Shown here: positions 23,974 through 49,157 of the stretch, piece by piece
How positions within the stretch are numbered: position 1 is the stretch's first letter
Layout of the letters: each line of letters begins with the position of its first letter
Origin: Halococcus qingdaonensis
GTDB taxonomy: Archaea > Halobacteriota > Halobacteria > Halobacteriales > Halococcaceae
Length of the DNA: 64,000 nt
Direction: 5' to 3'
Assembly (NCBI RefSeq): GCF_024508235.1
Contig: NZ_CP101943.1
Coordinates: 930,001-994,000, forward strand
Translations under genes and position numbers: made by a program
The notes under the pieces: generated by a model
Databases searched by the model: none
The model's input: the letters and a program-made list of their open reading frames with translations, nothing else
Told to the model about the DNA's origin: nothing

Positions 23974-24003
23974 TTTTTGCTTCCGTAGCCCCTGGGTTCG
24001 GTA

Positions 24004-24678
24004 ATGACAGCATCGGTCGACACTGTGTTGTTCGACATCGACGACACGCTCTGTGAGTACCGCCGTTCGGGCGACGAACTGCTCGCGCTCGCGTTCGAGG
24101 CGTGCGAGGTGGAGCCGTTCTTCACCGTCGAGGACTACTATGCCCGCTATGCGACGTTCGCCGACCGCACGGACACGATCACCGAGCTCCGCGAGGAGTG
24201 CTTCGCCGCCATCGCCGCCGACAACGACTACGACCCGGCGCTCGGATACGACCTCGCCGACGCCTACACCGACGAGCGCGACCACCACAACGTCCGCGCG
24301 CTCCCCGGCGCGCGCGAGGCGGTCGCGACCCTCTCGAACGATCACCGAGTCGGCGTCGTCACGAACGGCCCACCGGAGATGCAGTCGGACAAACTCGCCG
24401 CGCTCGGCCTCGACGACGCCTTCGAGACGGTGGTCCACGCGGGCTACGACGCGCCCGCCAAACCCGATCCCGAACCGTTCCATCGGGCGCTCTCCGCGCT
24501 CGACGGCGAACCGGAATCGGCCGTCCACATCGGTAACTCGCTGTCTTCTGACGTCGCCGGCGCGCAGGCGGCCGGTCTCCAAAGCGTCTGGCTCGACGAC
24601 GGCTCGACGCCCGATCCGGTGCCCGACCACACGCTCGCCTCGATGGAAGAGCTCGCGAACCCGCCGTGGCGAAGCTAA
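24004..24678 (+). CDS. HAD superfamily hydrolase
   Basis: Encodes 224 residues. Motif I is LFDIDDTLCEY (DxD at about residues 11-13), motif II is VVTNGPPEMQSDKL, motif III is the Lys of AKPDPEPFHRAL, and motif IV is HIGNSLSSDVAGAQAAG. This is a complete phosphatase-type HAD of subfamily I with a helical cap. The substrate is unknown. It is the last ordinary high-GC gene before an AT-rich island. Confidence 0.85.
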   Translation: MTASVDTVLFDIDDTLCEYRRSGDELLALAFEACEVEPFFTVEDYYARYATFADRTDTITELREECFAAIAADNDYDPALGYDLADAYTDERDHHNVRALPGAREAVATLSNDHRVGVVTNGPPEMQSDKLAALGLDDAFETVVHAGYDAPAKPDPEPFHRALSALDGEPESAVHIGNSLSSDVAGAQAAGLQSVWLDDGSTPDPVPDHTLASMEELANPPWRS

Positions 24679-24811
24679 GGGTAGCAGAGAAGCATTATAT
24701 TTGTCTGTGTTCTCCTCAGCGGCTGCCAGAAACGACTTGCAAGATACAGAGCACGTATTCAGCATCAGGGGTATTTAGATACCTTTGTGCGAACTGGCAG
24801 TAAGTTTCATG

Positions 24812-24826
24812 TGTGTCTATGACACA
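24812..24826. promoter_or_regulatory. Palindrome TGTGTC-TAT-GACACA before the island gene
   Basis: A perfect 6-bp inverted repeat with a 3-nt spacer ends 8 nt before the ATG at 24835. At this position it would overlap the start of a leaderless or short-leader transcript and could act as an operator or block initiation. The candidate TATA signal further upstream (GTATTTAGATAC, 24770-24781) is itself AT-rich and nearly palindromic. Confidence 0.4.
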
Positions 24827-24834
24827 TCGCAAAT

Positions 24835-25821
24835 ATGGTCGAGGCAGGTAATGCTGACAGTAGTGCTCCCCCGTATGTCTCCGATTTCGTCTATTTGGAT
24901 ATGGATGAAGTAAAATCCATCTCGGCGCGAATGGGAGGCGGATTTATCAAAGAGATGGTGGAAGGGGACGAGGAGGTGAACGAGGTCTCGAAAAGCGTGA
25001 CTGCACGACTCATGGCGTCTGTGTTCGGAATCGGAAAGGCAGGAATCGAAGGTAACGTCTTAGAAACAAGTGGTGATGCCTCGTACGAAGAGTCGGTTAA
25101 GGGCCTTCATCACTACCATTTTACCCTATTGCAAAACCGACTTGAAGATGCTGAAGGAAAATGGTTTCACGACTTGGGCGATATCCGACCGAGCACCAGT
25201 ATGTCCGGAGATGGATTTCGCGAAGGAACCCGGTCAGATGGACCGTGGGATGATATTTCGGAGGGCCACATCATCCGGGTGGACGGTAATTTAGAGGTTT
25301 CAGATATGTCTACGAGCCTTGACCTTCTCTTGGGGATTTTGTCAGTAATGTCTGATTCTGAAAAATTGGAGGCACTGGGTCTCAACTCGGTAGATATGGA
25401 TGAGACGTTCGATGAAGACTCCCCGTTGGCAGACATGGACGATGATGAACGGAAAGAAAGGATGCTCGACTTTTTCGATACTTTTTCAGCTTTTATACCA
25501 GCGGAATATGAAGAGATGATATTCGCTGAATTGTTTCCGATCCAAAATAATAGAGAGCAATCGATACGGCTAACGATAGACGAGAGCAAATTGGAAGACA
25601 CGCCGATTGAATTGATGACGAACTACGAAAGTAACCGAATTCCGAACTGCACACTCGTCGGGCGGGTGAAGACAATCACTCGAAACAAGTCAATAGAACT
25701 AAAAGATGGTTTGAATAATATTGGGATGATGCATCATCTGACGGACGAACTTGCGACAGAGATGGGACTCAAAGTCTCTTATCCATCTATTTCTGTGAAA
25801 CCAATCGCAATATATCGGTAG
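24835..25821 (+). CDS. Unrecognised accessory protein (DUF6414-like), AT-rich gene
   Basis: Encodes 328 residues with base and codon use unlike its neighbours. SDFVYLDMDEVKSISARMGGGFIKEMVEGDEEVNEVSKSVTARL near the N-terminus (residues 15-58) resembles the opening of DUF6414 proteins, where a Y-L-D-x-x-x-V start precedes an SxxA/G segment. The central region is helical (about residues 160-240) and the C-terminus is beta-rich (NRIPNCTLVGRVKTITRNK). It has no membrane segments or signal peptide. It stands alone with a palindrome at its start and an IS element 28 nt after its stop. Transfer is likely; a defence or stress role is only a guess. Confidence 0.65.
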   Translation: MVEAGNADSSAPPYVSDFVYLDMDEVKSISARMGGGFIKEMVEGDEEVNEVSKSVTARLMASVFGIGKAGIEGNVLETSGDASYEESVKGLHHYHFTLLQNRLEDAEGKWFHDLGDIRPSTSMSGDGFREGTRSDGPWDDISEGHIIRVDGNLEVSDMSTSLDLLLGILSVMSDSEKLEALGLNSVDMDETFDEDSPLADMDDDERKERMLDFFDTFSAFIPAEYEEMIFAELFPIQNNREQSIRLTIDESKLEDTPIELMTNYESNRIPNCTLVGRVKTITRNKSIELKDGLNNIGMMHHLTDELATEMGLKVSYPSISVKPIAIYR

Positions 25822-25870
25822 TCTCAACAAGAATATCTTGAAAACCACTGTGTACACCTGTTGCGTTTCG

Positions 25871-25881
25871 ACTATTTAAAA
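25871..25881 (+). promoter_or_regulatory. TATA box of the IS4-type transposase
   Basis: ACTATTTAAAA lies about 30 nt before the ATG at 25909 and directly inside the left inverted repeat. A small hairpin ACCGGC/GCCGGT follows it, within the expected start-site region. Confidence 0.55.
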
Positions 25882-25908
25882 CCGGCGTGAGCCGGTAGTG
25901 ACGGCCTG

Positions 25909-27114
25909 ATGTCTGTGACCTCTAAGTCGGCAGATAGGCCGTCACCGGATGCAACGGACGCCAACAACTTCAACTCTGCCGAAACTGTCGCCGATGAGTT
26001 GTACTCGCTGCTCGCCGCAGGCGACAGCGAGTCCATTGCTCAGGAGTTCGATATCGGCATCCACACCGACAAACACGACTTCGACAACCACCTCAAAGTA
26101 GCCATTCGTGAAGGACTTGATCCATCTAGTTCGCTCGCCGAACTCGCCGATAAGACCGCTGTTGATGACTCTCTTGACAAAATGCCCGAGTCACGGTTCT
26201 CCGAACTCACGAACGACCGCGACTACCGCGCGGTCGTTCGCATGCTGTTCGCGTTGCTCCACACGCCACAGCTGTATCATCAGCGTGCTGTCCAGCGAAA
26301 ACGCCTGAAGTGGCTTACACGAGGGGTAATTGCTGTCGACGCGACGAATCTCGAACTCACCCGCTCAGTTGTCGTCTCCGACGAATTTGTCGGAGACGAC
26401 GAGCACGTCTATGAAATCGACACAGACGGCGGTGGACTCGAACTTCATTGCGCCGCACGCGTAGACGGTGAACACAAGCATCCGCTTGGAACAACCGTGA
26501 CAGAGGGTGAAACCCACGAAAGTCCCCAGTTCAACCATCTCAGCGATGACGTCGAGGTCTTCGCAGACCTCGACTCGGTTATTTGGGTCTTTGACCGCGG
26601 ATACACGCGCTATCGTCGCTTTTGTGAGATCAAGTACAGCGACGATGACTTCGTCACCCTACTCCAGTCAAACGCCCGTCTCGACGTTCTGGACACGCTC
26701 CAGAACGTCGAGGTCACTAATGAGGACGGAACGAGACAGATTCGTGACGAGCAAATTGAACTGGCCGAGACCGGTGAACAGTTTCGTCGTGTCGTTTTGG
26801 AAACGCCGGATGGAGAAGAGCTTCAGTACCTGACGACGCTGGCGTCGTCAGCGTACGATCCCATCGACGTGATCAGTATCTACACCCTCCGGACAATGAT
26901 CGAGATTCTGTTTCGTGAATTCAAACAATATCTGAACGTTGAGAATTTCCACTCGAAATCACTGAACGGCGTGTTGTTTGAGTTGTTCTGTGCGTTGATT
27001 GGATACGTGCTTGTGGAGTGGCTGCGCCAACGCCACCCGGTCAAGGGTGGCGTGGCGCGTGCGATCCAGAAAGTCCGGACGCACTGGAACGAGACGCTGA
27101 CTTCGTTCGGCTAA
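25909..27114 (+). CDS. IS4-family transposase (ISH8 group)
   Basis: Encodes 401 residues, full length. DDE candidates are Asp in IAVDATNLEL (about residue 145), Asp in WVFDRGYTRYRRF (about 228), and Glu in the Y-(2)-R-(3)-E-(6)-K signature YTLRTMIEILFREFKQYL (about residues 325-342), which is diagnostic for IS4. The C-terminal LFELFCALIGYVLVEWLRQR matches ISH8 transposases. There is no internal stop, so it is probably functional. Confidence 0.9.
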   Translation: MSVTSKSADRPSPDATDANNFNSAETVADELYSLLAAGDSESIAQEFDIGIHTDKHDFDNHLKVAIREGLDPSSSLAELADKTAVDDSLDKMPESRFSELTNDRDYRAVVRMLFALLHTPQLYHQRAVQRKRLKWLTRGVIAVDATNLELTRSVVVSDEFVGDDEHVYEIDTDGGGLELHCAARVDGEHKHPLGTTVTEGETHESPQFNHLSDDVEVFADLDSVIWVFDRGYTRYRRFCEIKYSDDDFVTLLQSNARLDVLDTLQNVEVTNEDGTRQIRDEQIELAETGEQFRRVVLETPDGEELQYLTTLASSAYDPIDVISIYTLRTMIEILFREFKQYLNVENFHSKSLNGVLFELFCALIGYVLVEWLRQRHPVKGGVARAIQKVRTHWNETLTSFG

Positions 27115-27132
27115 TCTCATCACACGAGGCCA

Positions 27133-27166
27133 GCGACAGCCGTCGGCGGCCAGCGACGGCTGTCGC
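27133..27166 (+). terminator. Long perfect hairpin after the IS4-type transposase
   Basis: GCGACAGCCGTCG (27133-27145) and CGACGGCTGTCGC (27154-27166) form a 13-bp perfect stem around an 8-nt loop, 18 nt after the transposase stop. T-rich tracts follow (GGTTTTCTTCGCCTTTT). It may terminate transposase transcription or protect the element end. Confidence 0.5.
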
Positions 27167-27458
27167 CAAAATCGCGGTTTTCTTCGCCTTTTAGGCTTGA
27201 GACGACGCATTTCTCGATTCTGCTTCCATTTTCTCGCATCAGGCTGAACTTGCGCAGCCCACACACCCCGGTCTGGTGCCTCTCACAAAGGTCTCGCTCG
27301 CCGTGGCTTTATCAACTCAGAACGCAACAGGTGTACACCGACGATGTTCATTGAAAAGGATGTGGTTGCTGAATACATCCTCTGTATGCAGCATGCCATT
27401 TTTAATAGCTCGAAGGTTTGTGACGCTGGAACGATAACGGCCCCGCCAATTTCTGTAG

Positions 27459-29054
27459 CTACTTTGAGGAGACGTTCGTGACGGTACCCACACCTTTCGA
27501 GCGGCCCTCACGGAAGACGAACCGCTGGCCCTCCTCGACGAGATAGGGCCGGAACTTGAATCGCACTCGCGTGTGTCCGGTGTCGCCCGGCAGGAGCTGA
27601 CCACCCTCCGGGTGGAAGGCGGCGGCCTCGCTCACCGTTTCGAGGTGGACGACCGGCTCGTAGCCGTCGTCGATCCTGGTGGGGTGGTTGAGCACCATCA
27701 CGTCGGCCTCGAACTCCCGGACTGCTGTGGGGTCCGCATCGCGCGGCAGGAGGACCATCCCGCGTTCGAGATCCGCCTCCCGGACACCCTTTAACGCGAT
27801 CCCCACGATCCGGCCGGCCTTCGCGCGGTCGACGCGGTGGTAGTGCATCTCGATCGAGCGCGCTTCGACCTCGTGGAAGGTGCCGTCGCGGAACGGACCG
27901 AGGAGGAGTTCGTCGCCCGCTTCGACGGTTCCTGACCGAATCGTGCCGGAGGCGACCGCGCCGACGCCGGTCACTTTGTAGCTGCGATCGATGTACATCG
28001 AGAACTCGCCCTTCTCGGTGCCGGTCTTCGGCAGTCGCTCGAACAGTTCGTCAAGCGCGTCGAGCCCGTCCATCGTGACCGCGCTCGTGCGCAGAATGGG
28101 GACGACGGTGTCGCCGATCTCCTCGATGGCCGCGTCGACGCCGTGGCGATCGACGCGCAGTGGAGTCTTGCCCACGTCCCTGAGGAGGCGCTCGACCTCG
28201 CGCTCGACCTCGATGGCACGCTCTTCGTCGACCATGTCGGTTTTCGTGATGGCGACCACCGTCGGCAGCTCCGTCGCGAGCAACACGCCGAGATGTTCGC
28301 GCGTCGTCTTCGTCGGGCCGTCGTCGGCGGCCACGGTGAGGAGTCCGTAGTCGAGCTTCTGGCCGACCAACCCTCGAATCGTCGTCCGCAACCACGGCTC
28401 GTGGCCGACGGTGTCGACGAACGAGACCAGCTTGTCCGCCTCCTCGACGACCTCGGCGCGGTCGGCCTTTCGGTTCGGGTTCCGCGTGTGGACCGGTTCG
28501 CCGCCGTCGAAGCCGTAGACGGCGTACGAGAGATCCGCCGAGAGCCCGCGCTCGATCTCGTGGGGCTGGACGTCGAGGAAGCTCCGCGTGTCGCCGTTGC
28601 CGTCGTCCGGTTGGCCCGTGACGAGCGAGCCAACCAGGGTGCTCTTGCCGTGATCGACGTGGCCGGCGGTGCCGACGACGATGTGGCCGTCGTCTTCCAA
28701 CATTGCGCCCTCGGCGATGGTGGCGACGCCGACGAGCCCGTCGTCGATCCCCCACGTGTCGACCGCCTCGATGTGTGCGTTGGCCTCCTCGGCGAGCAGT
28801 GAGAGCACGTCCATCGACTCGGAGAACACGTCGGGCGAGATGCCTGCGAGTCCGCCGTCGTCGGTGACGCCGACGACGTAGGTGGCCTCGCCGTCGCCCG
28901 AGAGCACCCGGTGGCGCAGTTGTGCCGCGAGGCTCTCCAGCTTGCCGTCGGCGAGATGGAGGTCTTCGGTGAGCCGTTCTTTGAACTCGACGCTACCGCC
29001 CTCGCGCTCGCCCGCCGCGAGCGCCCGGTCGAGGACGGCCCGGTCAGCGACCAT
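27459..29054 (-). CDS. GTPBP1-like translational GTPase
   Basis: Encodes 531 residues. An N-terminal domain (about residues 1-120) precedes an EF-Tu-like G domain: GTAGHVDHGKST (G1, about residues 128-139), DTVGHEPW (G3), ITKTDM (G4), then beta-barrel domains with SYKVTGVGAVASGTIRSGTV and a C-terminal RFKFRPYLVEEGQRFVFREGRSKGVGTV. This architecture matches archaeal GTPBP1/2 family proteins, which are related to EF-1A/SelB and linked to ribosome or mRNA quality control. The precise role is not established. Confidence 0.85.
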   Translation of the reverse strand: MVADRAVLDRALAAGEREGGSVEFKERLTEDLHLADGKLESLAAQLRHRVLSGDGEATYVVGVTDDGGLAGISPDVFSESMDVLSLLAEEANAHIEAVDTWGIDDGLVGVATIAEGAMLEDDGHIVVGTAGHVDHGKSTLVGSLVTGQPDDGNGDTRSFLDVQPHEIERGLSADLSYAVYGFDGGEPVHTRNPNRKADRAEVVEEADKLVSFVDTVGHEPWLRTTIRGLVGQKLDYGLLTVAADDGPTKTTREHLGVLLATELPTVVAITKTDMVDEERAIEVEREVERLLRDVGKTPLRVDRHGVDAAIEEIGDTVVPILRTSAVTMDGLDALDELFERLPKTGTEKGEFSMYIDRSYKVTGVGAVASGTIRSGTVEAGDELLLGPFRDGTFHEVEARSIEMHYHRVDRAKAGRIVGIALKGVREADLERGMVLLPRDADPTAVREFEADVMVLNHPTRIDDGYEPVVHLETVSEAAAFHPEGGQLLPGDTGHTRVRFKFRPYLVEEGQRFVFREGRSKGVGTVTNVSSK

Positions 29055-33588: not shown

Positions 33589-34725
33589 ATGGCGTTCCAG
33601 CTATCGGGAGAACACGAGGCCATCCGATCGGCCGTCCGCGAGTTCGCCGAGGAGGAGATCGTGCCCGTCGCGCGCGAGCACGACGAGTCGGGTGACTATC
33701 CGGAAGAACTCAGACGAGAGGCCGCGAAGTACGACTTCGTCGCGCCAAACATCCCCGAGGCCTACGGGGGTGCGGGGATGGACGCGCTCGCGGGATCGAT
33801 CGTGACCGAGGAGCTCTGGCGCGCCGACCCGGGCATCGGCAGCGCGGTCGGTTCGGCGGGCTTCGGCAGCGACATGCTCATCGAGTATGGCGACGAGTGG
33901 ATGAAGGAAGAATGGCTGCCGGAGATCGCCGCTGGCGAAGCGGTCTCGGCGAGCGCCATCTCCGAACCCGCCCACGGCTCGAACGTCGCGGGCATCGAGA
34001 CCCGCGCGGAGCAGGACGGCGACGACTACGTCATCAACGGGAACAAGACCTGGATCACCAACGGCTCGGTCGCGGACGTCGCCATCGTGATGACCAAGAC
34101 CGACCCCGGCGCTGGCCATCAGGGGATCACGGCCTTTCTCGTGCCGACCGACACGGATGGGTTCTCGGCGGAGAAGATCGACAACAAGCTCGGGATCCGG
34201 GCATCCGACCTCGCGGAACTGCGCTTCGACGACGTCAGAGTCCCGGAAGAGAACGTCGTCGGCGAGGTGAACGAGGGGTTCTACCAGCTGATGGAGTTCT
34301 TCGCGTCGGGGCGAACGAGCGTCGCCGCCCAGGCCGTGGGGGCCGCACAGGGCGCGCTCGACGCCGCTCGTGAGTACGCGACCGAGCGCGAGCAGTTCGA
34401 CCAGCCCATTGCCGAGTTCCAGGCCATCCGGCACAAGCTCGCCGAGATGGCGACCGACGTGGATGCCGCGCGGTCGCTCGCCTACCGGGCCGCGAGCGCG
34501 GTCGAGAGCGACGCCGACGACGCGGTACGGCTGGCGAGCATGGCGAAACTGTTCGCCAGCGAGCACGCCGTCGACGTGGCCGACGAGGCGATCCAGGTGT
34601 TCGGTGGTGCGGGTTACGTCACCGACCATCCCGCCGAGCGCTACTACCGCGACGCGCGCATCACGAAGATCTACGAGGGCACGAGCGAGATCCAGAAGAA
34701 CATCATCGCCGACCGGTTGCTATGA
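33589..34725 (+). CDS. Acyl-CoA dehydrogenase (canonical, catalytic Glu present)
   Basis: Encodes 378 residues, standard length. It has the FAD-contact segment SASAISEPAHGSNVAGIETRAEQDGDDYVINGNKTWITNG (about residues 119-158). The catalytic-base motif KIYEGTSEIQKNII is at the C-terminus, with Glu in YEG. It introduces an alpha-beta double bond in acyl-CoA, passing electrons to ETF. It overlaps the following hydrolase by four bases (ATGA). The start has a TATA box at leaderless distance. Confidence 0.92.
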   Translation: MAFQLSGEHEAIRSAVREFAEEEIVPVAREHDESGDYPEELRREAAKYDFVAPNIPEAYGGAGMDALAGSIVTEELWRADPGIGSAVGSAGFGSDMLIEYGDEWMKEEWLPEIAAGEAVSASAISEPAHGSNVAGIETRAEQDGDDYVINGNKTWITNGSVADVAIVMTKTDPGAGHQGITAFLVPTDTDGFSAEKIDNKLGIRASDLAELRFDDVRVPEENVVGEVNEGFYQLMEFFASGRTSVAAQAVGAAQGALDAAREYATEREQFDQPIAEFQAIRHKLAEMATDVDAARSLAYRAASAVESDADDAVRLASMAKLFASEHAVDVADEAIQVFGGAGYVTDHPAERYYRDARITKIYEGTSEIQKNIIADRLL

Positions 34726-35570: not shown

Positions 35571-36095
35571 ATGAGTGACACACCGGAATGGGAGTTCACC
35601 GAGCGCGATGTGGTAATCCTGCGCGAGCTCGCGGGCGATCCGCAGGTCTCCTCGCGCCAGCTCACCGAGATCCTCGACGAGAAGTACGACATCGACGTCT
35701 CGCACGTCACGGTCAGCGAGTCGATCCGACGGATGCGCGAGGAGGGCGTCTTCCGCGAGGCGATCATCCCGAACGAGGACTTTTTCATCTTCGGCCTGTT
35801 CGAGTTCAAGTTCAACGCCGAACACTTCGCCGACGAGTGGCGCGCGGCGATGGAGTACATCCGCGATTCGCCGAACACGCTGTTCTATTTCCTCTCCGAT
35901 GGCGAATACCAGTGGAAGACGGTGATGATGTTCCCGACGCGCGAGGCCGAATCGCGCTGGATCCACGAGTTCTACAAGGAACACGGCAGCGTGGTCTCGA
36001 ACATCCGCAACTCCGTCGTGACGAACGTGCTCAAGTTCGGCACCGATCCCGAACTGCTCGAAAGCCTGAACAACGGGCCGCGTACGCGGGAATAG
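35571..36095 (+). CDS. Winged helix-turn-helix regulator
   Basis: Encodes 174 residues. The N-terminal wHTH runs WEFTERDVVILRELAGDPQVSSRQLTEILDEKYDIDVSHVTVSESIRRMREEGVFREAI (about residues 5-64) and is followed by an Lrp-like sensor region. It begins 3 nt after the hydrolase gene, so it probably regulates this acyl-CoA operon or nearby catabolic genes. The ligand is unknown. Confidence 0.8.
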   Translation: MSDTPEWEFTERDVVILRELAGDPQVSSRQLTEILDEKYDIDVSHVTVSESIRRMREEGVFREAIIPNEDFFIFGLFEFKFNAEHFADEWRAAMEYIRDSPNTLFYFLSDGEYQWKTVMMFPTREAESRWIHEFYKEHGSVVSNIRNSVVTNVLKFGTDPELLESLNNGPRTRE

Positions 36096-36567: not shown

Positions 36568-37008
36568 TCAGCGCACCAGCGAGAGTAGCTCACAGGAGAG
36601 CACGGTCTCGCCGTTCTGATCGAGTACCGCCACGCCGTATCTGATGGTCCCGTTCGCCCGTGGATGGTCGCGCTCCGCCTTTTCGAGCACCTCGGTCTCG
36701 ACGTGGATCGTGTCGCCGATATAGGTCGGTGCGGCGAACCGAAGCGTATCGACCCCGTAGAACGCGATGACGTCGTCGCGCTGCTCGGGCGTCCGGGACT
36801 GCCAGAGCAGGCCCGTCATCGCCGAGAAGACGAACGCGCCGTGGACGATCCGCTCGCCATACTCCGTACTCGCCATCCGCTCCGCATCGGTATGGTGATG
36901 GTTGAAATCGCCGCTCACGCCTGCGAAATTCGTCACGTCGGCTTCGGTCACCGTCCGCCGGGCGGTCGTGGCCGTCTCGCCCTCGGCGATCGATTCGAAG
37001 GTAGTCAT
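36568..37008 (-). CDS. MaoC family (R)-specific enoyl-CoA hydratase-like protein
   Basis: Encodes 146 residues with a hotdog fold. Hydratase motif: FAGVSGDFNHHHTDAERMASTEYGERIVHGAF (about residues 28-59), carrying the catalytic Asp and His. It hydrates trans-enoyl-CoA to 3-hydroxyacyl-CoA. It is the last gene of an operon with a thioesterase and a 3-hydroxyacyl-CoA dehydrogenase; its ATG overlaps the thioesterase stop by four bases. Confidence 0.87.
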   Translation of the reverse strand: MTTFESIAEGETATTARRTVTEADVTNFAGVSGDFNHHHTDAERMASTEYGERIVHGAFVFSAMTGLLWQSRTPEQRDDVIAFYGVDTLRFAAPTYIGDTIHVETEVLEKAERDHPRANGTIRYGVAVLDQNGETVLSCELLSLVR

Positions 37009-37457
37009 CGTCCCTCCCGGAAGAGCCGGTAGCTCGTGCGCCCGACCGCGACGTCCTTCTCCTCGCCGTTCGGCGCGATGCTCGATACGGTTGCATCCGT
37101 CACGCCCATCGATCCACCCGCGCGGACGACCTCGGCCTCGACGGTCAGATCGTCGGTCGCAGGGCGGAGATAGGAGACGTTCAGATCCGTGGTCGTGAGC
37201 GCCGCGCCCTGGGGGTCCTCGAACGTCGACCGAAGCGCGAACCCGCTCGCGGTGTCGACGAGCGTGGCCGCCACGCCACCGTGGACGTTCGCCTCGCCGC
37301 CGGGCACGAGATTGGTGAACTTCTCGTCGTAGGGCACGCGGAGCACGACGCGGCCGTGCTCGATCGTCTCGATCTCGATGCCGAGCCAGGAGAAGAAGCC
37401 GTGCTCGCCGACGATGGCTTCGAGCTGGCTCCGCTCGGCCGGCGAGAGGTCGCTCAT
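37005..37457 (-). CDS. PaaI family thioesterase
   Basis: Encodes 150 residues with a hotdog fold. GEANVHGGVAATLVDTASGFALRST (about residues 54-78) carries the HGG turn and the catalytic Asp region of PaaI-type acyl-CoA thioesterases. It overlaps genes on both sides (ATGA). In this operon it probably clears stalled acyl-CoA intermediates. Confidence 0.87.
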   Translation of the reverse strand: MSDLSPAERSQLEAIVGEHGFFSWLGIEIETIEHGRVVLRVPYDEKFTNLVPGGEANVHGGVAATLVDTASGFALRSTFEDPQGAALTTTDLNVSYLRPATDDLTVEAEVVRAGGSMGVTDATVSSIAPNGEEKDVAVGRTSYRLFREGR

Positions 37458-38647
37458 CGACCCCCGGAGACCGGCTCGCCGTCCTCGTACTCGTAGAACC
37501 CGCGCCCGTTCTCCTGTCCCGTGTTCCCGTTCTCGACCAGCTCGACGAGATAGTCGGCCGGCTCGAAGCGCTCCTCGCCGGTCGCCTCGTGGAGCGATTC
37601 GAGTTTGTCCAGGATCGTGTCGAGACCCGCCCGGTCGGCGCGCCGGCACGGCCCCTCGGAGAAGCCAGCACCGAGTCGCATGCCGGTGTCGATGGCGTCG
37701 GGGGTCGCCACGTCCATCCCGACGAGCTTCGCGGCCTCGTTGACCATTCGGGCCTCCACCCGGAGAGTGTCGAACCCCTCGCCGTCGCCCGCTTCGTAGT
37801 CCGCACCGTCACCATTCTCGTAGTCGTAGTAGCCCTTTCCCGTCTTGCGGCCCAGCTCCTCGGCTGCGACCCGCTCCTCGATCATCGGCGGGTTGGTGAT
37901 GCCGGCCTCCTCACGGACCGAGTAGCCGATGTCGATCCCCGTCAGATCGGCGAGCTCGAACGGCCCCATCGGGTAGCCACGCTGGTGGACCATCGCGGCG
38001 TCGGCCTCCCGGATGCTGGCCTCGTCGTTGGAGACCATCCAGGCGGGTTCGACCATGAACGGTCCGAGAACGCTGTTCACGACGAACCCCTGGACGTCCT
38101 TGCGGACGTAGATCGGCGTCTTGCCGAGCGATTCGACGAAATCGTGGGCTGTCTCGGCGGTCGCGTCGGACGTTTGCTCGCCGTAGATCACCTCGACGAG
38201 ATCCATCTTGACCGGCGGGTTGAAGTAGTGGGTGCCGACCACCTGTGCCGCCCTGTCGGTGGCGCTCGCGATCTCGGTGATCGACAGCGAGGAGGTGTTC
38301 GAGGCGAGGATCGCCCCGTCGGGCGCGAGCTCGTCAAGTTCGGCGTAGATCTCCTTTTTGAGCGCCATCCGTTCGGGGGCGGCCTCGACCACCAGATCGG
38401 CGTCGCTAACCGCTTCGGCGAGATCGGTCGTCGTGTCGATGCGCGCGAGCACGTCATCTGGATCGTCGATCGCCCCGTTCTCGGCGAGTTTGCCGACGCT
38501 CCACTCGATGTTCTCGTAACCCGACTCGATCAAGTCAGCCTCGATGTCGCGCATCGTCATGTCGTAGCCGCCGAGCGCGACGACCTCGGTGATGCCGTGA
38601 CCCATGTTGCCCGCGCCGAGCACCGCCACCCGTTCGATGTCCGTCAT
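37454..38647 (-). CDS. 3-hydroxyacyl-CoA dehydrogenase (extended, duplicated C-terminal domain)
   Basis: Encodes 397 residues, longer than the about 280-residue core because of a second C-terminal HBD domain (from about residue 295). The NAD-binding motif is AVLGAGNMGHGI (residues 8-19). SNTSSLSITEIA, GTHYFNPPVKMDLVEVI (catalytic His) and GYPMGPFELADLTGID (catalytic Glu) are present. It oxidises 3-hydroxyacyl-CoA to 3-ketoacyl-CoA. It is the first gene of the operon with thioesterase and MaoC, so the set covers hydration and oxidation of enoyl-CoA. Confidence 0.92.
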   Translation of the reverse strand: MTDIERVAVLGAGNMGHGITEVVALGGYDMTMRDIEADLIESGYENIEWSVGKLAENGAIDDPDDVLARIDTTTDLAEAVSDADLVVEAAPERMALKKEIYAELDELAPDGAILASNTSSLSITEIASATDRAAQVVGTHYFNPPVKMDLVEVIYGEQTSDATAETAHDFVESLGKTPIYVRKDVQGFVVNSVLGPFMVEPAWMVSNDEASIREADAAMVHQRGYPMGPFELADLTGIDIGYSVREEAGITNPPMIEERVAAEELGRKTGKGYYDYENGDGADYEAGDGEGFDTLRVEARMVNEAAKLVGMDVATPDAIDTGMRLGAGFSEGPCRRADRAGLDTILDKLESLHEATGEERFEPADYLVELVENGNTGQENGRGFYEYEDGEPVSGGR

Positions 38648-38699: not shown

Positions 38700-39767
38700 T
38701 CATAGCGGCTCCTCCCCCTCGATGATGCGCACCGCGCGATCGGCGAGTTCGGGCACGCCAGTCTCCATCTTCGGGTAGAGCGGGTCGTCGGCGTTGCCCT
38801 CCAGATAGCGCCGGAAGAACATCTCGCCGAGGCCGGCGAGCTTGTAGACCGCGAGCGCGCGATAGAACCGGTCGTTCTCGTACTCGATCCCCGTCCGTTG
38901 CTCGTAGCGCTCGACCAGTTCCTGCCGACTGGGATAGCCCTCACTGGTCATGAACGTCGCGGTGAGCGAGTCGGTCGCCGCCGGGGGTTCGGGATCGCCC
39001 TCGTCCCACCAGTACGACAGCAGCCAGCCGAGATCGACGAGCGGATTTCCAAGTGTGCTCAGCTCCCAGTCGAACACCGCGACGATCTCGGGTGGCGTTC
39101 CCGGCCCGAACATCACGTTGTCGAGTTTGTAGTCGCCCTGGACGAGCGTGTGCGTCGGCGCGTCGGGCACGTTCTCGGTCAGCCACTCCATCACGTCGTA
39201 GAGCGCGGGCACCTCGCGCTCCTCGCTTGTCACGTCGAATGCCCAGGTCAACTGTTCCGACCAGCGGCTCACCTGCCGCTCGGTGAACCCCTCTGGATGG
39301 CCGAACTCGCCGAGGCCCGCGTCCTCGTAGTCGACCGCGTGGATCTCGGCGAGCCCGTCGACGAGTTCCTCGCCGATCCGCTGTCGGTGATCGGGCGTGG
39401 CGAAACGCTCGGGCTCGCCCTCGCGCAGCACGTCGCCCGCGACGCGCTCCATCACGTAGAAATCACAGCCCAAGACTGAATGATCCTCACAGGCCAACAC
39501 GGTGGGCGGCACTCTGACGTCCGTCTCCTGAAGCGCGTCCATCACACGGTACTCCCGTAGTACGTCGTGGGCGGTGTCGGCGACCTCGCCAGGTGGCGGT
39601 CGACGGACCACGAGGTCGCGATCACCCCACTCGACGAACAGCGTCTCGTTCGAGTGGCCCTCCTGATGGTGGCGAACGTCGAACGCCTCAACTGCCCCGA
39701 GTTCGCGCTCGAAGTAGTCGGCGAGCGACTCCCGATCGACGATGCGCGCGAAATACTCGTCGCTCAT
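38700..39767 (-). CDS. APH-type phosphotransferase; candidate hydroxyacyl-CoA kinase (LvaA/ACAD10-11 kinase-like)
   Basis: Encodes 355 residues from MSDEYFARIVDRESLADYFERELG. The kinase fold has VVRRPPPGE (ATP site, about residues 53-61), the Brenner-type catalytic loop LVQGDYKLDNVMF (about residues 206-218) and the metal-binding segment VFDWELSTLGNPLVDLGW (about residues 229-246). DWELSTLG-(D/N)-PL is characteristic of the phosphotransferase domain of ACAD10/ACAD11 and of LvaA, which phosphorylates 4-hydroxyacyl-CoA. It is divergent from a matching acyl-CoA dehydrogenase. The substrate here is inferred. Confidence 0.85.
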   Translation of the reverse strand: MSDEYFARIVDRESLADYFERELGAVEAFDVRHHQEGHSNETLFVEWGDRDLVVRRPPPGEVADTAHDVLREYRVMDALQETDVRVPPTVLACEDHSVLGCDFYVMERVAGDVLREGEPERFATPDHRQRIGEELVDGLAEIHAVDYEDAGLGEFGHPEGFTERQVSRWSEQLTWAFDVTSEEREVPALYDVMEWLTENVPDAPTHTLVQGDYKLDNVMFGPGTPPEIVAVFDWELSTLGNPLVDLGWLLSYWWDEGDPEPPAATDSLTATFMTSEGYPSRQELVERYEQRTGIEYENDRFYRALAVYKLAGLGEMFFRRYLEGNADDPLYPKMETGVPELADRAVRIIEGEEPL

Positions 39768-39802
39768 CGGCTCCCCCGGTTCGGCCACGGTGGTGATCTC
39801 AT

Positions 39803-39813
39803 TACCATTGGTA
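39803..39813. promoter_or_regulatory. Palindrome TACC-ATT-GGTA in the kinase/dehydrogenase promoter region
   Basis: Perfect 4-bp arms with a 3-nt spacer, 36 nt before the kinase start on the minus strand and inside the 244-nt divergent gap. The same design (TTACC-GGT-GGTAA) occurs at 47269-47281 before the SDR gene. The rest of the gap (39768-40011) holds AT-rich TATA-like stretches (TATATTGATACC at 39862-39873; GTTTTACAAT at 39981-39990) and no gene. Confidence 0.4.
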
Positions 39814-39980
39814 GATCGGTTGTGCGTCCGGGTACGAATATCTACTGGACACATCATTCTATATTGATACCTTTGCGGAGGATTCACGGTGCTTGTGGCT
39901 TCACGTAGTCGATAGCTTCGTTCGCCGAGAACCAGTCACATCCATATACAGTATGCGAATTCGTCAGTATCCGGCCTATC

Positions 39981-39990
39981 GTTTTACAAT
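39981..39990 (+). promoter_or_regulatory. TATA box of the acyl-CoA dehydrogenase at 40012
   Basis: GTTTTACAAT is centred about 26 nt before the ATG, typical of leaderless transcription. Confidence 0.5.
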
Positions 39991-40011
39991 GTAGTGCCGA
40001 GAAGGGGTCGT

Positions 40012-41223
40012 ATGGACTACGACGACTCGGCGACCGCCCAGGAACTGCGCGATCGAGCCCGCGAATTCATGGACGAAGTCGTGCTGCCGAAGGAGCGCGC
40101 CAACGCCGCCGGCAGCGTCTCCCAGGGGACGATCGACGAACTACGCGAGCAGGCCCGCGAGTACGACGTCTACGCACCCCAGATTCCCGAAGAACACGGC
40201 GGCATGGGAATCGCGCTCCGGGACGTACTGCCGCTGTTCGAGGAAGCGGGTCGAAGCCTGCTCGGCGCGCCCGCGATGCGCGTCGACGCGCCCGACGAGG
40301 GGAACATGCACACGCTCGAACTCGTCGGCACCGAGGCACAGAAAGAGGAGTGGCTCGACCCGCTGGTGGCCGGCGAGGTTCGTTCGGGCTTCGCGATGAC
40401 CGAACCCGCTCCTGGAGGCGGATCAGACCCGAAGATGCTCCGTACCACCGCGGAAAAGAAAGGGGACGAATGGGTCATCGACGGCCACAAATGGTGGACC
40501 ACCCAGGGCAGCGCGGCCGACGTGCTCCTGGTGATGGCCCGGACCGACGAGGAGGCTCACCCCTACGCCGGCTGCTCGATCATTCTCGTGCCGACCGACG
40601 CGGCGGGCGTCGAGATCGTCCGCGACATTCCCCATCTCGGCCAGGATCTCGTGCCCGAGAGCCACGCCGAGATCCGCTTCGACGGGGTGCGCGTGCCCGA
40701 GGAGAACCTCCTCGGCGAGGAAAACGAGGGGTTCACCGTCGCCCAGCAGCGCCTCGGGCCCGCACGACTGACCCACTGCATGCGCTTTTCCGGAATGGCC
40801 GATCGCGCGCTCGACGTGGCAAAGGCCTACATGAGCGAGCGCGAAGCGTTCGGCTCGTCGCTCGCCGACAAACAGGCCCAGCGGTTCGCGATCGCCGAGG
40901 CAGAAACCCGGCTGCACGCCGCGCGGACGATGGTCAGGGACGCCGCGGCGAAACTCGACGCCGGCGAGGAGGCCAGAGTCGAGGTCTCGATGAGCAAGGT
41001 CTTCGCCGCCAACGTCGCCCAGGAGACGATCGATCTCGCCATCCAGTGCTGTGGCGGGGCCGGCATCAGTCGCGATCTGCCGCTCGCCGACTTCTACGAC
41101 GCGGTACGTGCCTTCCGTATCGTCGACGGAGCCGACGAGGTCCACAAGCGAACGATCGCGCGTGCGGCCTTCGACGACACTGATCCGACGGAGATCGAGG
41201 CGGTCCCCCGCTTCGACGGCTGA
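40012..41223 (+). CDS. ACAD10/ACAD11-like acyl-CoA dehydrogenase (catalytic Glu replaced by Asp)
   Basis: Encodes 403 residues. FAD segments are FAMTEPAPGGGSDPKMLRTTAEKKGDEWVIDGHKWWTTQG (about residues 128-167). GPARLTHCMRFSGMADRALDVAKAYMSEREAFGSSLADKQ (about residues 249-288) and the C-terminal AFRIVDGADEVHKRTIA closely follow ACAD10/11 (GPARIHHCMR, ADGPDEVH). Where ordinary members have YEGT with catalytic Glu, this one has VDGA with Asp. In the ACAD11/LvaC pathway such enzymes act on the phosphorylated acyl-CoA made by the partner kinase, here encoded divergently next door. Confidence 0.88.
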   Translation: MDYDDSATAQELRDRAREFMDEVVLPKERANAAGSVSQGTIDELREQAREYDVYAPQIPEEHGGMGIALRDVLPLFEEAGRSLLGAPAMRVDAPDEGNMHTLELVGTEAQKEEWLDPLVAGEVRSGFAMTEPAPGGGSDPKMLRTTAEKKGDEWVIDGHKWWTTQGSAADVLLVMARTDEEAHPYAGCSIILVPTDAAGVEIVRDIPHLGQDLVPESHAEIRFDGVRVPEENLLGEENEGFTVAQQRLGPARLTHCMRFSGMADRALDVAKAYMSEREAFGSSLADKQAQRFAIAEAETRLHAARTMVRDAAAKLDAGEEARVEVSMSKVFAANVAQETIDLAIQCCGGAGISRDLPLADFYDAVRAFRIVDGADEVHKRTIARAAFDDTDPTEIEAVPRFDG

Positions 41224-44115: not shown

Positions 44116-45288
44116 ATGCGACTCGATGGCGTCCGCGTGCTCGATCTGACGCGTCACCTGCCAGGTCCGTACGCCACCCAACTGCTCGCCGACGCCGGGG
44201 CGGAGGTCGTCAAGATCGAGGATACCGCCACCGGTGATCCGACCCGCTGGATGAGCTTCGAGAGCGAAGGGAGCGACGGAACGCTGTTCGGGGCGGTCAA
44301 TCGGGGCAAGCGAAGCGTCGCACTCGACCTCAAAACCGACGCGGGGCGCGAGGCGTTCTTCGAGCTCGCGAGCGACGCCGACGTGCTGATCGAGGGATTC
44401 CGCCCGGGCGTCACCGAACGCCTCGGGATCGACGACGATTCAGTTCGTGAGCACAACCCCGAGATCGTCTACTGCTCGCTGTCGGGCTACGGCCAGACCG
44501 GGCCGTACCGCACCCGTGCGGGCCACGACCTGAACTACGCCGCCTTTTCGGGTCTGCTCGACATGACCCGTGCCGACGAGAGCGCGAAACCACAGATGCC
44601 GGGCGTTCCGGTGGGTGACATGGCCGGCGGGCTCTTCGCCGCGTTCTCGATCGTCGGCGCGCTCTGTTCGCGCGCGCTCGGCAACACCGGCGGCGAGTAT
44701 CTCGACGTCGCCATGACCGACGTGTTGCTCTCCTTTTCACAAGCGCTCGCGCCCGACGCGCTCGCGGGCGAGACGCCGCGCCCCGGGGAAACGGCTCTCA
44801 CGGGGGAGTTGCCCTGGTACGGGATCTACGAGACCAGTGATGGAAAGTTCGTCTCGATCGCGGCGCTCGAACCGCCGTTCTGGAACGCATTTTGTGAGAC
44901 CGTCGGCCGTGAGGATCTCATCGAGACACACATGACGGACGACGAGGCGACACGTGCGGCGCTGCGCGAGGAGTTGACCGAGCTATTCGCCGCGAAGACC
45001 CGCGACGAGTGGGCCGAGACGTTCGCGGACAGCGACGCGACCGTCGAACCCGTTCGCACTCTCCCCGAGGCGCTCGATCATCCACAGACCGACTCGCGAG
45101 GGATCGTCGAACGGACACAGTGGCCACAGCGGATCGGCTTTCCGGCGCGGTCGTCCGATCACGCCGACCCCGCGACAGGCGTTCCAGGACACGGTGCACA
45201 GACCGAAGCGGTCCTCCGCGAGGCGGACTACACCGACGACGATATCGCGGAGCTACGCGAGTCGGGAGCCGCGGTTTTCGGCGAGTGA
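44116..45288 (+). CDS. Family III CoA transferase (CaiB/BaiF type)
   Basis: Encodes 390 residues. It opens MRLDGVRVLDLTRHLPGPYATQLLADAGAEVVKIED, the family III signature. NRGKRSVALDLKT and a catalytic Asp in GVPVGDMAGGLFAA (about residues 161-174) follow. It transfers CoA between acyl-CoA and a free acid. It abuts the convergent FMN oxidase gene with no spacer (45288/45289), within the acyl-CoA catabolic region. Confidence 0.88.
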   Translation: MRLDGVRVLDLTRHLPGPYATQLLADAGAEVVKIEDTATGDPTRWMSFESEGSDGTLFGAVNRGKRSVALDLKTDAGREAFFELASDADVLIEGFRPGVTERLGIDDDSVREHNPEIVYCSLSGYGQTGPYRTRAGHDLNYAAFSGLLDMTRADESAKPQMPGVPVGDMAGGLFAAFSIVGALCSRALGNTGGEYLDVAMTDVLLSFSQALAPDALAGETPRPGETALTGELPWYGIYETSDGKFVSIAALEPPFWNAFCETVGREDLIETHMTDDEATRAALREELTELFAAKTRDEWAETFADSDATVEPVRTLPEALDHPQTDSRGIVERTQWPQRIGFPARSSDHADPATGVPGHGAQTEAVLREADYTDDDIAELRESGAAVFGE

Positions 45289-46523: not shown

Positions 46524-47219
46524 TCACCCGTCGTCGATACCGACCAGATCGACGATATCGAGCGGGTCATCGACGCGATACGTGACGGCCGGATCGTCGG
46601 GGGCCGCCTCGCTCGCGCTGCCCCCGAACGCGACGGTGTCGATACCCGCTCGCGCCGCGCCCTGCATGTCGTTCTCGTAGCGATCGCCGACCATCAGCGC
46701 CGCGGCGGGTTCGACGCCCGCCTTCGCGAGCGCGGTCTCGAACATCGCCGGGTCGGGTTTCGTCCGGCCGACCTCCTCGGAGGTCGTCACCGCGTCGAGT
46801 CGGTCAGCGACGCCGAACTGCGAGAGCAGCGCCTCGCCCTCCCACGTGTCGATGTCGCTGACGACACCCTGATGAACGTGGCTTTCGAGCCGGCGGATCG
46901 CAGTGACGGTTTCCGCGATTGGTTCGAGGTTCTCACGGGTCGCGCGCTCAAAGGTCGGCAGCCACTCCTCCTCGGGCAGTTCGTGCCCGACCATCGCCGC
47001 GACCGCGCGCCCGTAACCGACCCGCGCGCTGCGGAACTCGGTGCCCTCGCGCGTACTGAAATGCGATCCCAGTTCGTCGCGCCACGTGGCGAGCGCTTCC
47101 TCCCTGTCGAGATCGTGCTCGTCGGCGAGCGCCCCGACGAACGCCCGATGGCCCGCCCGGACCGAGCCGAGATCCAGGATCACGCCGCCGATGTCCCAGA
47201 AGACTGCCTCGTAGTTCAT
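46524..47219 (-). CDS. HAD superfamily hydrolase
   Basis: Encodes 231 residues from MNYEAVFWDIGGVILDLGSV. Motif I is FWDIGGVI (Asp at residue 9, Gly replacing the usual second Asp, as in many haloacid dehalogenase-type members). Motif II is VVSDIDTWEG, motif III is the Lys in RTKPDPAMF, and motif IV is MVGDRYENDMQGAARAG. The Gly at the second Asp position means its acid/base residue differs from phosphatase-type members. The substrate is unknown. Confidence 0.83.
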   Translation of the reverse strand: MNYEAVFWDIGGVILDLGSVRAGHRAFVGALADEHDLDREEALATWRDELGSHFSTREGTEFRSARVGYGRAVAAMVGHELPEEEWLPTFERATRENLEPIAETVTAIRRLESHVHQGVVSDIDTWEGEALLSQFGVADRLDAVTTSEEVGRTKPDPAMFETALAKAGVEPAAALMVGDRYENDMQGAARAGIDTVAFGGSASEAAPDDPAVTYRVDDPLDIVDLVGIDDG

Positions 47220-47379: not shown

Positions 47380-48150
47380 ATGACCACGGAACAGTTCAGC
47401 GTCGACGGCGACACGGCGCTCGTGACGGGCGCGTCGAGCGGTATCGGGCGCGCGATCGCCGAGCGGTTCGCGGCCGATGGGGCGGAGGTCGTGATCTGTT
47501 CGCGCGAGCAGGGGAACGTCGATCCCGTGGCCGAGGGGATCCAGGAGGCCGGCGGATCGGCGCTCGCCGTCGAGTGTGACGTGCGCGAGCGCGACTCCGT
47601 TGAGGCGCTCGTCGAGGCCACCGTCGCGGAGTTCGGCGGGCTCGACACGCTCGTCAACAACGCGGGCGCGAGCTTCATGGCGAACTTCGAGGGCATCTCC
47701 GAGAACGGCTGGAAGACGATCGTCGACATCAACCTCCACGGGACCTACCACTGCACGCAGGCCGCCGGCGAGGTGATGCGCGAGGGCGATGGGGGGACGA
47801 TCATCAACTTCGCGAGCGTCGCCGGACAGGAGGGCGCGCCGTTCATGAGCCACTACGCCGCCGCCAAGGCGGGCGTGGCGAACCTCACCTCGACGCTCGC
47901 CTACGAGTGGGCCGACGACGGGGTGCGGGTGAACTGCATCGCGCCGGGGTTCGTCGCCACACCCGGCGTGGCGAGCCAGATGGGCGTCACCGCCGACGAG
48001 ATCGACCGAGAGGAGGTGGATCGCAAGATCGGCACGAGTGAGGAGATCGCCGACGTCGCCCAATTCCTCGCGAGCTCCGCCGCGTCGTATCTCACCGGCG
48101 AGACGATCACCGCACGGGGCGTGCCGGACATCATGGAATCGCCAGAATGA
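47380..48150 (+). CDS. Short-chain dehydrogenase/reductase (FabG-like)
   Basis: Encodes 256 residues. Cofactor motif ALVTGASSGIGRAIAERF (residues 13-30), NNAGA (about residues 90-94), and the catalytic Ser...Tyr-x3-Lys as NFASVAGQEGAPFMSHYAAAKAG (Tyr at about 159, Lys 163). It has a leadered start with GGAGG at proper spacing, unusual for this window. It overlaps the LLM gene by four bases. The likely substrate is a 3-oxoacyl or hydroxyacyl intermediate. Confidence 0.9.
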   Translation: MTTEQFSVDGDTALVTGASSGIGRAIAERFAADGAEVVICSREQGNVDPVAEGIQEAGGSALAVECDVRERDSVEALVEATVAEFGGLDTLVNNAGASFMANFEGISENGWKTIVDINLHGTYHCTQAAGEVMREGDGGTIINFASVAGQEGAPFMSHYAAAKAGVANLTSTLAYEWADDGVRVNCIAPGFVATPGVASQMGVTADEIDREEVDRKIGTSEEIADVAQFLASSAASYLTGETITARGVPDIMESPE

Positions 48151-49157
48151 GCGACTCCGCCGCCGATCGCGACGTATTCCTCCCGGTGGGCGCACAGCCG
48201 AGCATCGACGCGCTCTGCGAGCAGGCCGAACGCGCCGAGGAACTCGGCTACGATCGGGTCTGGCTACCCGAGACGTGGGGTCGTGACGCAGTGACGGTGC
48301 TCACTTCGATCGCTCATCGAACCAACGAAATCGGCATCGGCACGTCGATCGTCCCCATCTACTCGCGCTCGCCCGCACTGCTCGGCCAGACCGCCGCCAC
48401 GCTCCAGGAAGTCTCTGACGGGCGCTTTCGGCTGGGCCTCGGCCCCTCCGGACCGATCGTCGTCGAGAACTGGCACGGCGTCGACTACGGAAACCCGCTT
48501 CGCCGGACGCGCGAGACCGTCGAGATCGTCAAGGCGGTGCTCACGGGCGAGGAAGTCGACTACGACGGCGACGACTTCGACCTCTCGGGCTTTCGGCTGC
48601 GCTGCGAGCCACCGGAGCCCGCGCCGGCGGTCGACGCGGCCGGGATGGGACCCAAGAGTGTCGAACTCGCCGGGCGCTTCGCCGACGGCTGGCACGCGCT
48701 CATGCTCACCCGCGAGGGGCTCCGCGAGCGTCTCGACGACCTCCGTCGTGGGGCGGCGCTCGCGGACCGCAACCTCGACGACGTGCGCGTGACGCTCTCG
48801 CTGACCTGTGCGGCGCTCGACGACGGCGAACGCGCCCGCGAATCCGTCCGCCAACATCTCGCCTTCTACGTTGGCGGGATGGGGACGTTCTACCGGGACA
48901 GCCTCGCGCGGATCGGCCACGAGGACACCGCCGAGGCGATCTACGAACACTGGCAGGCCGGCGATCGCGAGGCAGCGATGGCGGCCGTCGACGACGAACT
49001 CCTCGATTCGATCGCGGTCGCCGGCACGCCCGAAGAGGCGCGCGAGCGGTTCGCGCGCTTCGCCGCCATCGACGGCGTCGATCACGTCTCGGTGTCGTTC
49101 CCGCGCGACGCGACGCTCGACGAGATCGGGGCGACGACCGCGGCACTCGCTCCCTAA
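48147..49157 (+). CDS. LLM-class F420-dependent oxidoreductase
   Basis: Encodes 336 residues. VFLPVGAQPSIDALCEQAERAEELGYDRVWLPETWGRDAVTVLTSIAHRTNEIGIGTSIVPIYSRSPALLGQTAATL and GRFRLGLGPSGPIVVENWHG are typical of the bacterial luciferase-like F420 family (TIM barrel). GMGPKSVELAGRFADGWHALMLT is the conserved C-terminal strand. It probably uses coenzyme F420. It is co-translated with the SDR through ATGA. Confidence 0.87.
   Translation: MSDSAADRDVFLPVGAQPSIDALCEQAERAEELGYDRVWLPETWGRDAVTVLTSIAHRTNEIGIGTSIVPIYSRSPALLGQTAATLQEVSDGRFRLGLGPSGPIVVENWHGVDYGNPLRRTRETVEIVKAVLTGEEVDYDGDDFDLSGFRLRCEPPEPAPAVDAAGMGPKSVELAGRFADGWHALMLTREGLRERLDDLRRGAALADRNLDDVRVTLSLTCAALDDGERARESVRQHLAFYVGGMGTFYRDSLARIGHEDTAEAIYEHWQAGDREAAMAAVDDELLDSIAVAGTPEEARERFARFAAIDGVDHVSVSFPRDATLDEIGATTAALAP

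Follow-up and report, generated by a model that had tools for sequence, protein, structure and literature searches.

Divergent kinase and acyl-CoA dehydrogenase genes of Halobacteria as a probable split counterpart of ACAD10/ACAD11 and LvaA/LvaC

Two divergent genes of Halococcus qingdaonensis, one for an APH-fold kinase and one for an acyl-CoA dehydrogenase, raise the question of whether haloarchaea use the phosphorylation and elimination chemistry by which 4-hydroxy fatty acids are broken down elsewhere. Knowledge of this breakdown is recent and comes from mammals and a single bacterial operon, and archaea go unmentioned in the two accounts consulted (PMC12440821; PMC11342911). We analysed a 64,000-nt stretch of a 2.7-Mb contig around the genes (the window), together with related loci, and sequence comparison makes it probable that the two genes encode, in split form, a haloarchaeal counterpart of the module known from ACAD10/ACAD11 and LvaA/LvaC. 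The type of pathway is already known; what appears to be new is a conserved archaeal module and its strict association with a HAD-family protein, as no archaeal report of the kinase-dehydrogenase pathway or of that association was found in the literature searched.

Both reading frames lie where the first-pass annotation had placed them, as divergent neighbours (kinase on the minus strand, dehydrogenase on the plus strand) with approximately 220 bp between their starts. The probable starts are internal to the open reading frames, giving 40012-41223 for the dehydrogenase and 38700-39788, or 39767, for the kinase (Table 1). That they are not chance open reading frames is confirmed by their lengths of about 400 amino acids each and by the presence, in 144 haloarchaeal genomes, of orthologues that are 60-95% identical to them.

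Table 1. Positions in the window of the kinase-dehydrogenase pair and of the neighbouring genes discussed in the text
Gene product	Position	Strand	Remarks
ACAD11/LvaA-like kinase (APH fold), proposed 4-hydroxyacyl-CoA kinase	38700..39788	-	Pfam APH 2.3e-45
ACAD11/LvaC-like acyl-CoA dehydrogenase, proposed to eliminate phosphate from 4-phosphoacyl-CoA	40012..41223	+	Asp at catalytic-base position
3-hydroxyacyl-CoA dehydrogenase	37454..38647	-	3HCDH_N 7e-62; 52 bp downstream of kinase
Hotdog-fold thioesterase	37005..37457	-	4HBT 8.5e-14, TIGR00369; 4-bp overlap with 3-hydroxyacyl-CoA dehydrogenase
MaoC-type enoyl-CoA hydratase	36568..37008	-	MaoC_dehydratas 9.9e-24; 4-bp overlap with thioesterase
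Winged-helix-like putative regulator	35571..36095	+	Recurrent neighbour
Canonical acyl-CoA dehydrogenase (YEGT)	33589..34725	+	Recurrent neighbour
Family III CoA-transferase	44116..45288	+	CoA_transf_3 1.6e-105
HAD-family protein, motif I WDIGG	46524..47219	-	Strict co-occurrence partner of pair
Short-chain dehydrogenase (SDR), candidate 4-oxo/4-hydroxyacyl-CoA or 3-hydroxyacyl-CoA oxidoreductase	47380..48150	+	
TIGR04024 LLM-class F420-dependent oxidoreductase	48147..49157	+	TIGR04024 559 bits

Searched by sequence against solved structures, the kinase matched 9o56 (E 4e-64), 3dxp (5e-53) and the kinase domain of mouse ACAD11 (2e-50), the last in structure 8v3v, which we read as the D753N form of ACAD11 from the Asn aligned at that position. 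In the ACAD11 study Asp220 and Asn225 were assigned to catalysis and Arg86 and Arg176 to CoA binding (PMC12440821). By alignment all four are present in the window kinase and invariant in 63 haloarchaeal kinases, with Arg86 adjoining the alpha-C Glu, and the predicted segment DWELSTLGNPL is there as claimed. The catalytic loop reads QGDYKLDN, with Gln in place of the His of HGD and with Asp220 and Asn225 intact; the substitution is shared by the window kinase and all 8 genomes sampled from its genus, and 61 of the 63 haloarchaeal copies have His. This His is a common feature of the catalytic loop, with no published requirement for it in the ACAD10/11-LvaA kinases.

The dehydrogenase contains three Pfam Acyl-CoA_dh domains and its closest solved relatives by sequence are 4hr3 (Mycobacterium abscessus) and ACAD11. 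A fold search with its predicted model (pLDDT 86.6) gave 4hr3, 8v3u and 2wbi in ranks 1-4, with ACAD11 among the closest folds. Arg626, His634, Arg637 and Asp753 of ACAD11 have been assigned to binding of the 4-phosphate and to catalysis, and the first three are described as missing from conventional ACADs (PMC12440821). In the haloarchaeal enzyme the equivalents of R626, R631, the HCMR motif (H634 and R637) and D753 are all present and are invariant in 56 haloarchaeal copies, and it is the sole one of the approximately 16 acyl-CoA dehydrogenases of its genome with an in-frame R....R..HCMR (a match to the signature in another locus, L006, was discarded as a wrong-frame chance match). The motifs GPARLTHCMR and VDGADEVH were correctly read by the first-pass annotation, as was the YEGTSEI of the canonical enzyme in the window, and its proposal that Asp occupies the catalytic position is borne out by mouse ACAD11, which has Asp753 at the same site.

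The two genes are inherited together without exception: of 292 Halobacteria genomes, 144 have both kinase and dehydrogenase and 148 have neither, the dehydrogenase orthologue occurring in exactly the genomes that hold the kinase, so that the gene pair is indeed co-conserved. Two sets of kinase matches were distinguished, a strong one (E <= 1.4e-78, 144 genomes) and a weak one (18 genomes, best 1e-50), the cut between them being fixed after the gap was seen, and the weak set was treated as paralogues. These 18 genomes (E 1e-32 to 1e-50, for example G012, G045 and G253) are without an ACAD11-like gene. Shared ancestry inflates the Fisher value of the co-occurrence; at least 12 genera, however, contain both pair-positive and pair-negative genomes, and therefore the pair has been gained or lost jointly and repeatedly. 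By tblastn the dehydrogenase lies within about 9 kb of the kinase in 40 of 62 kinase loci, and is divergent from it within 500 bp in 33; in the remaining loci it is unlinked yet still in the genome. A perfectly co-inherited split module is thus present in half of the haloarchaeal genomes sampled. Outside Halobacteria, no match at E <= 1e-70 from the same phylum was seen among the matches listed.

The same two catalytic domains occur in mammalian ACAD11 and ACAD10, to which the haloarchaeal proteins are about 35-38% identical and with which they share all of the functional residues, HCMR and the catalytic Asp among them; ACAD11 is a single fused polypeptide, whereas the haloarchaeal proteins are encoded by separate divergent genes. 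In this they are more like LvaA and LvaC of the Pseudomonas putida lva operon, which we liken by description: kinase and dehydrogenase genes are separate, many genomes have SDR and acyl-CoA-activating genes close to them and the reactions are proposed to run in the same order, but the haloarchaeal genes are divergently transcribed and on their own haloarchaeal branch. LvaC is reported to be 56-62% identical to ACAD10/11 (PMC11342911). Bacterial pairs from Streptomyces, Marinobacter, Deinococcus, Thermus and Acidobacteriota show the same pairing and signatures at 36-45% identity, those on Deinococcus and Thermus plasmids by annotation, and a dehydrogenase with the HxMR motif was found within 10 kb in 48 of 71 further kinase loci (70 bacterial and one from a Halobacteriales bin). 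A Pseudomonas locus (L235) considered as the lva operon was rejected, as the ACAD11-like gene is missing within 10 kb. In the dehydrogenase tree, from which one row (own_L005) was disregarded as a wrong-frame translation, the haloarchaeal copies form one branch (support 96/99) beside a branch of bacterial proteins and ACAD11 (100/98); the kinase tree, which contained no antibiotic kinase, likewise sets a haloarchaeal branch apart, at modest support, from the bacterial/ACAD11 group. The roots are arbitrary and no direction of transfer was read from either tree. Because the haloarchaeal proteins are only approximately 33-45% identical to ACAD11 and the bacterial relatives and branch beside them, their substrate may differ. 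Two Streptomycetaceae HxMR dehydrogenases (L199 and L222) sit on a separate long branch and may form a further subgroup that acts on a different substrate.

Genes that could serve the steps on either side of the pair are found around it. The 3-hydroxyacyl-CoA dehydrogenase, thioesterase and MaoC hydratase that the first-pass annotation had noted are present, but its placing of them in the next operon does not hold, as they follow the kinase on the same strand after 52 bp and overlap one another by 4 bp, and are most simply the kinase's own operon. A 3-hydroxyacyl-CoA dehydrogenase is near the kinase in 18 of the 62 haloarchaeal loci. The SDR gene is present in 131 of the 144 pair genomes compared to 29 of the 148 others, and in 31 of the 62 kinase loci; the TIGR04024 oxidoreductase gene, which recurs next to the SDR/HAD unit, is in 16 of these loci. 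No acyl-CoA ligase gene lies beside the pair in the window; the CoA-transferase, which is also near the kinase in Halococcus dombrowskii, is a possible activating enzyme, and fused HBD-hydratase and acyl-CoA ligase genes recur near the pair in haloarchaeal loci. The putative regulator gene occurs in 116 of the 144 pair genomes, and a strict tie to the pair was rejected since 34 of the 148 other genomes carry it too.

The HAD-family protein is more strictly associated. A class-wide search found it in 99 genomes, all within the 144 with the pair and none without. Its gene recurs near the kinase, nearly always on the kinase strand, at 88-261 bp in eight sampled loci and at 6.7 kb in the window. 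Motif I, read in 21 of 24 haloarchaeal HADs, is D-I/V/L-G-G, and with D-I-G-G the protein lacks the second aspartate of DxD. A motif I with the first aspartate alone is likewise reported for the HAD domain of ACAD10, which is said to restrain the kinase (PMC11342911). The two share this feature but differ in that the haloarchaeal protein scores best with the TIGR02253 subfamily model, and it therefore need not be an orthologue of the ACAD10 domain. Most likely it would restrain the kinase or clear surplus phosphoacyl-CoA, as proposed for that domain, and its strict association gives a separate way to approach the HAD domain of ACAD10, which is poorly understood.

Other phosphatase-type partners recur at related loci. 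A ComB-like gene of the 2-phosphosulfolactate phosphatase family abuts the kinase in Halocatena (L241:10038-10739), in Halorientalis pallida (L164:11066-11713) and at L157:7110-7790, in each case with no HAD gene seen nearby, and in several bacteria (L240:10151-10864; L174:10954-11646; L187:11023-11685), Deinococcus and Marinobacter among them, the immediate neighbour of the kinase gene encodes a histidine phosphatase, where haloarchaea have the HAD or ComB-like protein. We tentatively suggest, as an idea somewhat more doubtful than not, that such a partner arose more than once; control or clearance of phosphoacyl-CoA would then be a general need, and the haloarchaeal module would be dedicated to a particular hydroxy-lipid.

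The order of reactions that we infer would begin with a CoA ligase or CoA-transferase making a gamma-hydroxylated acyl-CoA, with the SDR perhaps interconverting the 4-oxo and 4-hydroxy forms. The kinase would then phosphorylate the 4-hydroxyl group with ATP; in the dehydrogenase the Arg-Arg-His residues would hold the phosphate while Asp abstracts the alpha proton, and FAD would be used internally, in a redox-neutral manner, with phosphate expelled to leave 2-enoyl-CoA. MaoC or another enoyl-CoA hydratase and the 3-hydroxyacyl-CoA dehydrogenase could take the product through beta-oxidation, and the thioesterase may clear stalled CoA esters. The first-pass annotation had proposed a split kinase and phosphate-eliminating dehydrogenase in a dedicated 4-hydroxy-acid pathway, for example for gamma-lactones. 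The pair passed all of the sequence tests available and the interpretation as a whole is partly supported: judged from sequence, the reaction class of a split ACAD11/LvaAC-type module can be assigned with high confidence, and the substrate with low confidence only, gamma-lactones being one guess.

Haloferax mediterranei carries the pair (WP_004060557.1 / WP_004060558.1) on pHME132, where genes for the SDR, HAD, dehydrogenase, kinase, HBD and regulator (annotated as a winged helix-turn-helix gene next to the pair) stand side by side, with a canonical dehydrogenase, an acyl-CoA ligase, an SCP2 lipid-binding gene and alcohol and aldehyde dehydrogenases in the same cluster. This species builds 4-hydroxybutyrate into polyester from gamma-butyrolactone (PMC3880725) and therefore presumably forms 4-hydroxybutyryl-CoA; degradation of this intermediate by the pHME132 cluster does not follow from the polymer. 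As the pair is plasmid-borne in a species that can be cultivated and has already been fed gamma-butyrolactone, the pathway can be tested in a third domain of life.

Three other explanations of the pair were weighed. The most serious, though improbable, is that the same kinase-then-eliminate chemistry acts on a different lipid with a hydroxyl group, for example a sterol-like alcohol or a hydroxy acid of branched or isoprenoid type. In its favour are the depth of the haloarchaeal branch, the SCP2 gene of the Haloferax mediterranei island and a fold search with the predicted kinase model (pLDDT 91.7), in which the 25-hydroxy steroid kinase of Sterolibacterium (9fsg) was the second best match after 3dxp, followed by Rv3168; the mouse ACAD11 kinase chain was absent among the 50 fold matches listed, despite its strong match by sequence. 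The steroid kinase, an enzyme of the anaerobic breakdown of cholesterol, is also an APH-fold enzyme phosphorylating a lipid hydroxyl before elimination, as part of an ATP-dependent dehydration of a tertiary alcohol (PMC8449060), but its substrate is a free sterol alcohol with no CoA ester and its sequence similarity to the window kinase is weak (1.5e-13), far below that of ACAD11. The invariant CoA-binding arginines of the kinase, and a partner that is an acyl-CoA dehydrogenase with 4-phosphate-binding residues, also argue against such a substrate.

It is very unlikely that the dehydrogenase carries out ordinary alpha,beta-dehydrogenation with Asp as its base and lies by chance beside an unrelated small-molecule kinase. 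Both proteins do come from large families and they are not adjacent in part of the loci, but they co-occur perfectly whether linked or unlinked, the Arg and His residues for phosphate binding are invariant, and the same pairing is found in bacteria. A role of the kinase as a true phosphotransferase for aminoglycosides or other antibiotics can practically be dismissed. The fold is that of the APH family and public records often label these kinases "aminoglycoside phosphotransferase", but the kinase scored 31.6 bits with the APH(3') equivalog model, failing its cut-off of 205, and in the fold search antibiotic kinases, at 12-18% identity, ranked below 3dxp, the steroid kinase and Rv3168, which agrees with the first-pass annotation in keeping this protein apart from the aminoglycoside phosphotransferases and leaves the split ACAD10/ACAD11-like module as the preferred reading.

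Elsewhere in the window, positions 24001-28000 have a GC content of 0.54-0.58 compared to 0.65 and are possibly acquired DNA.
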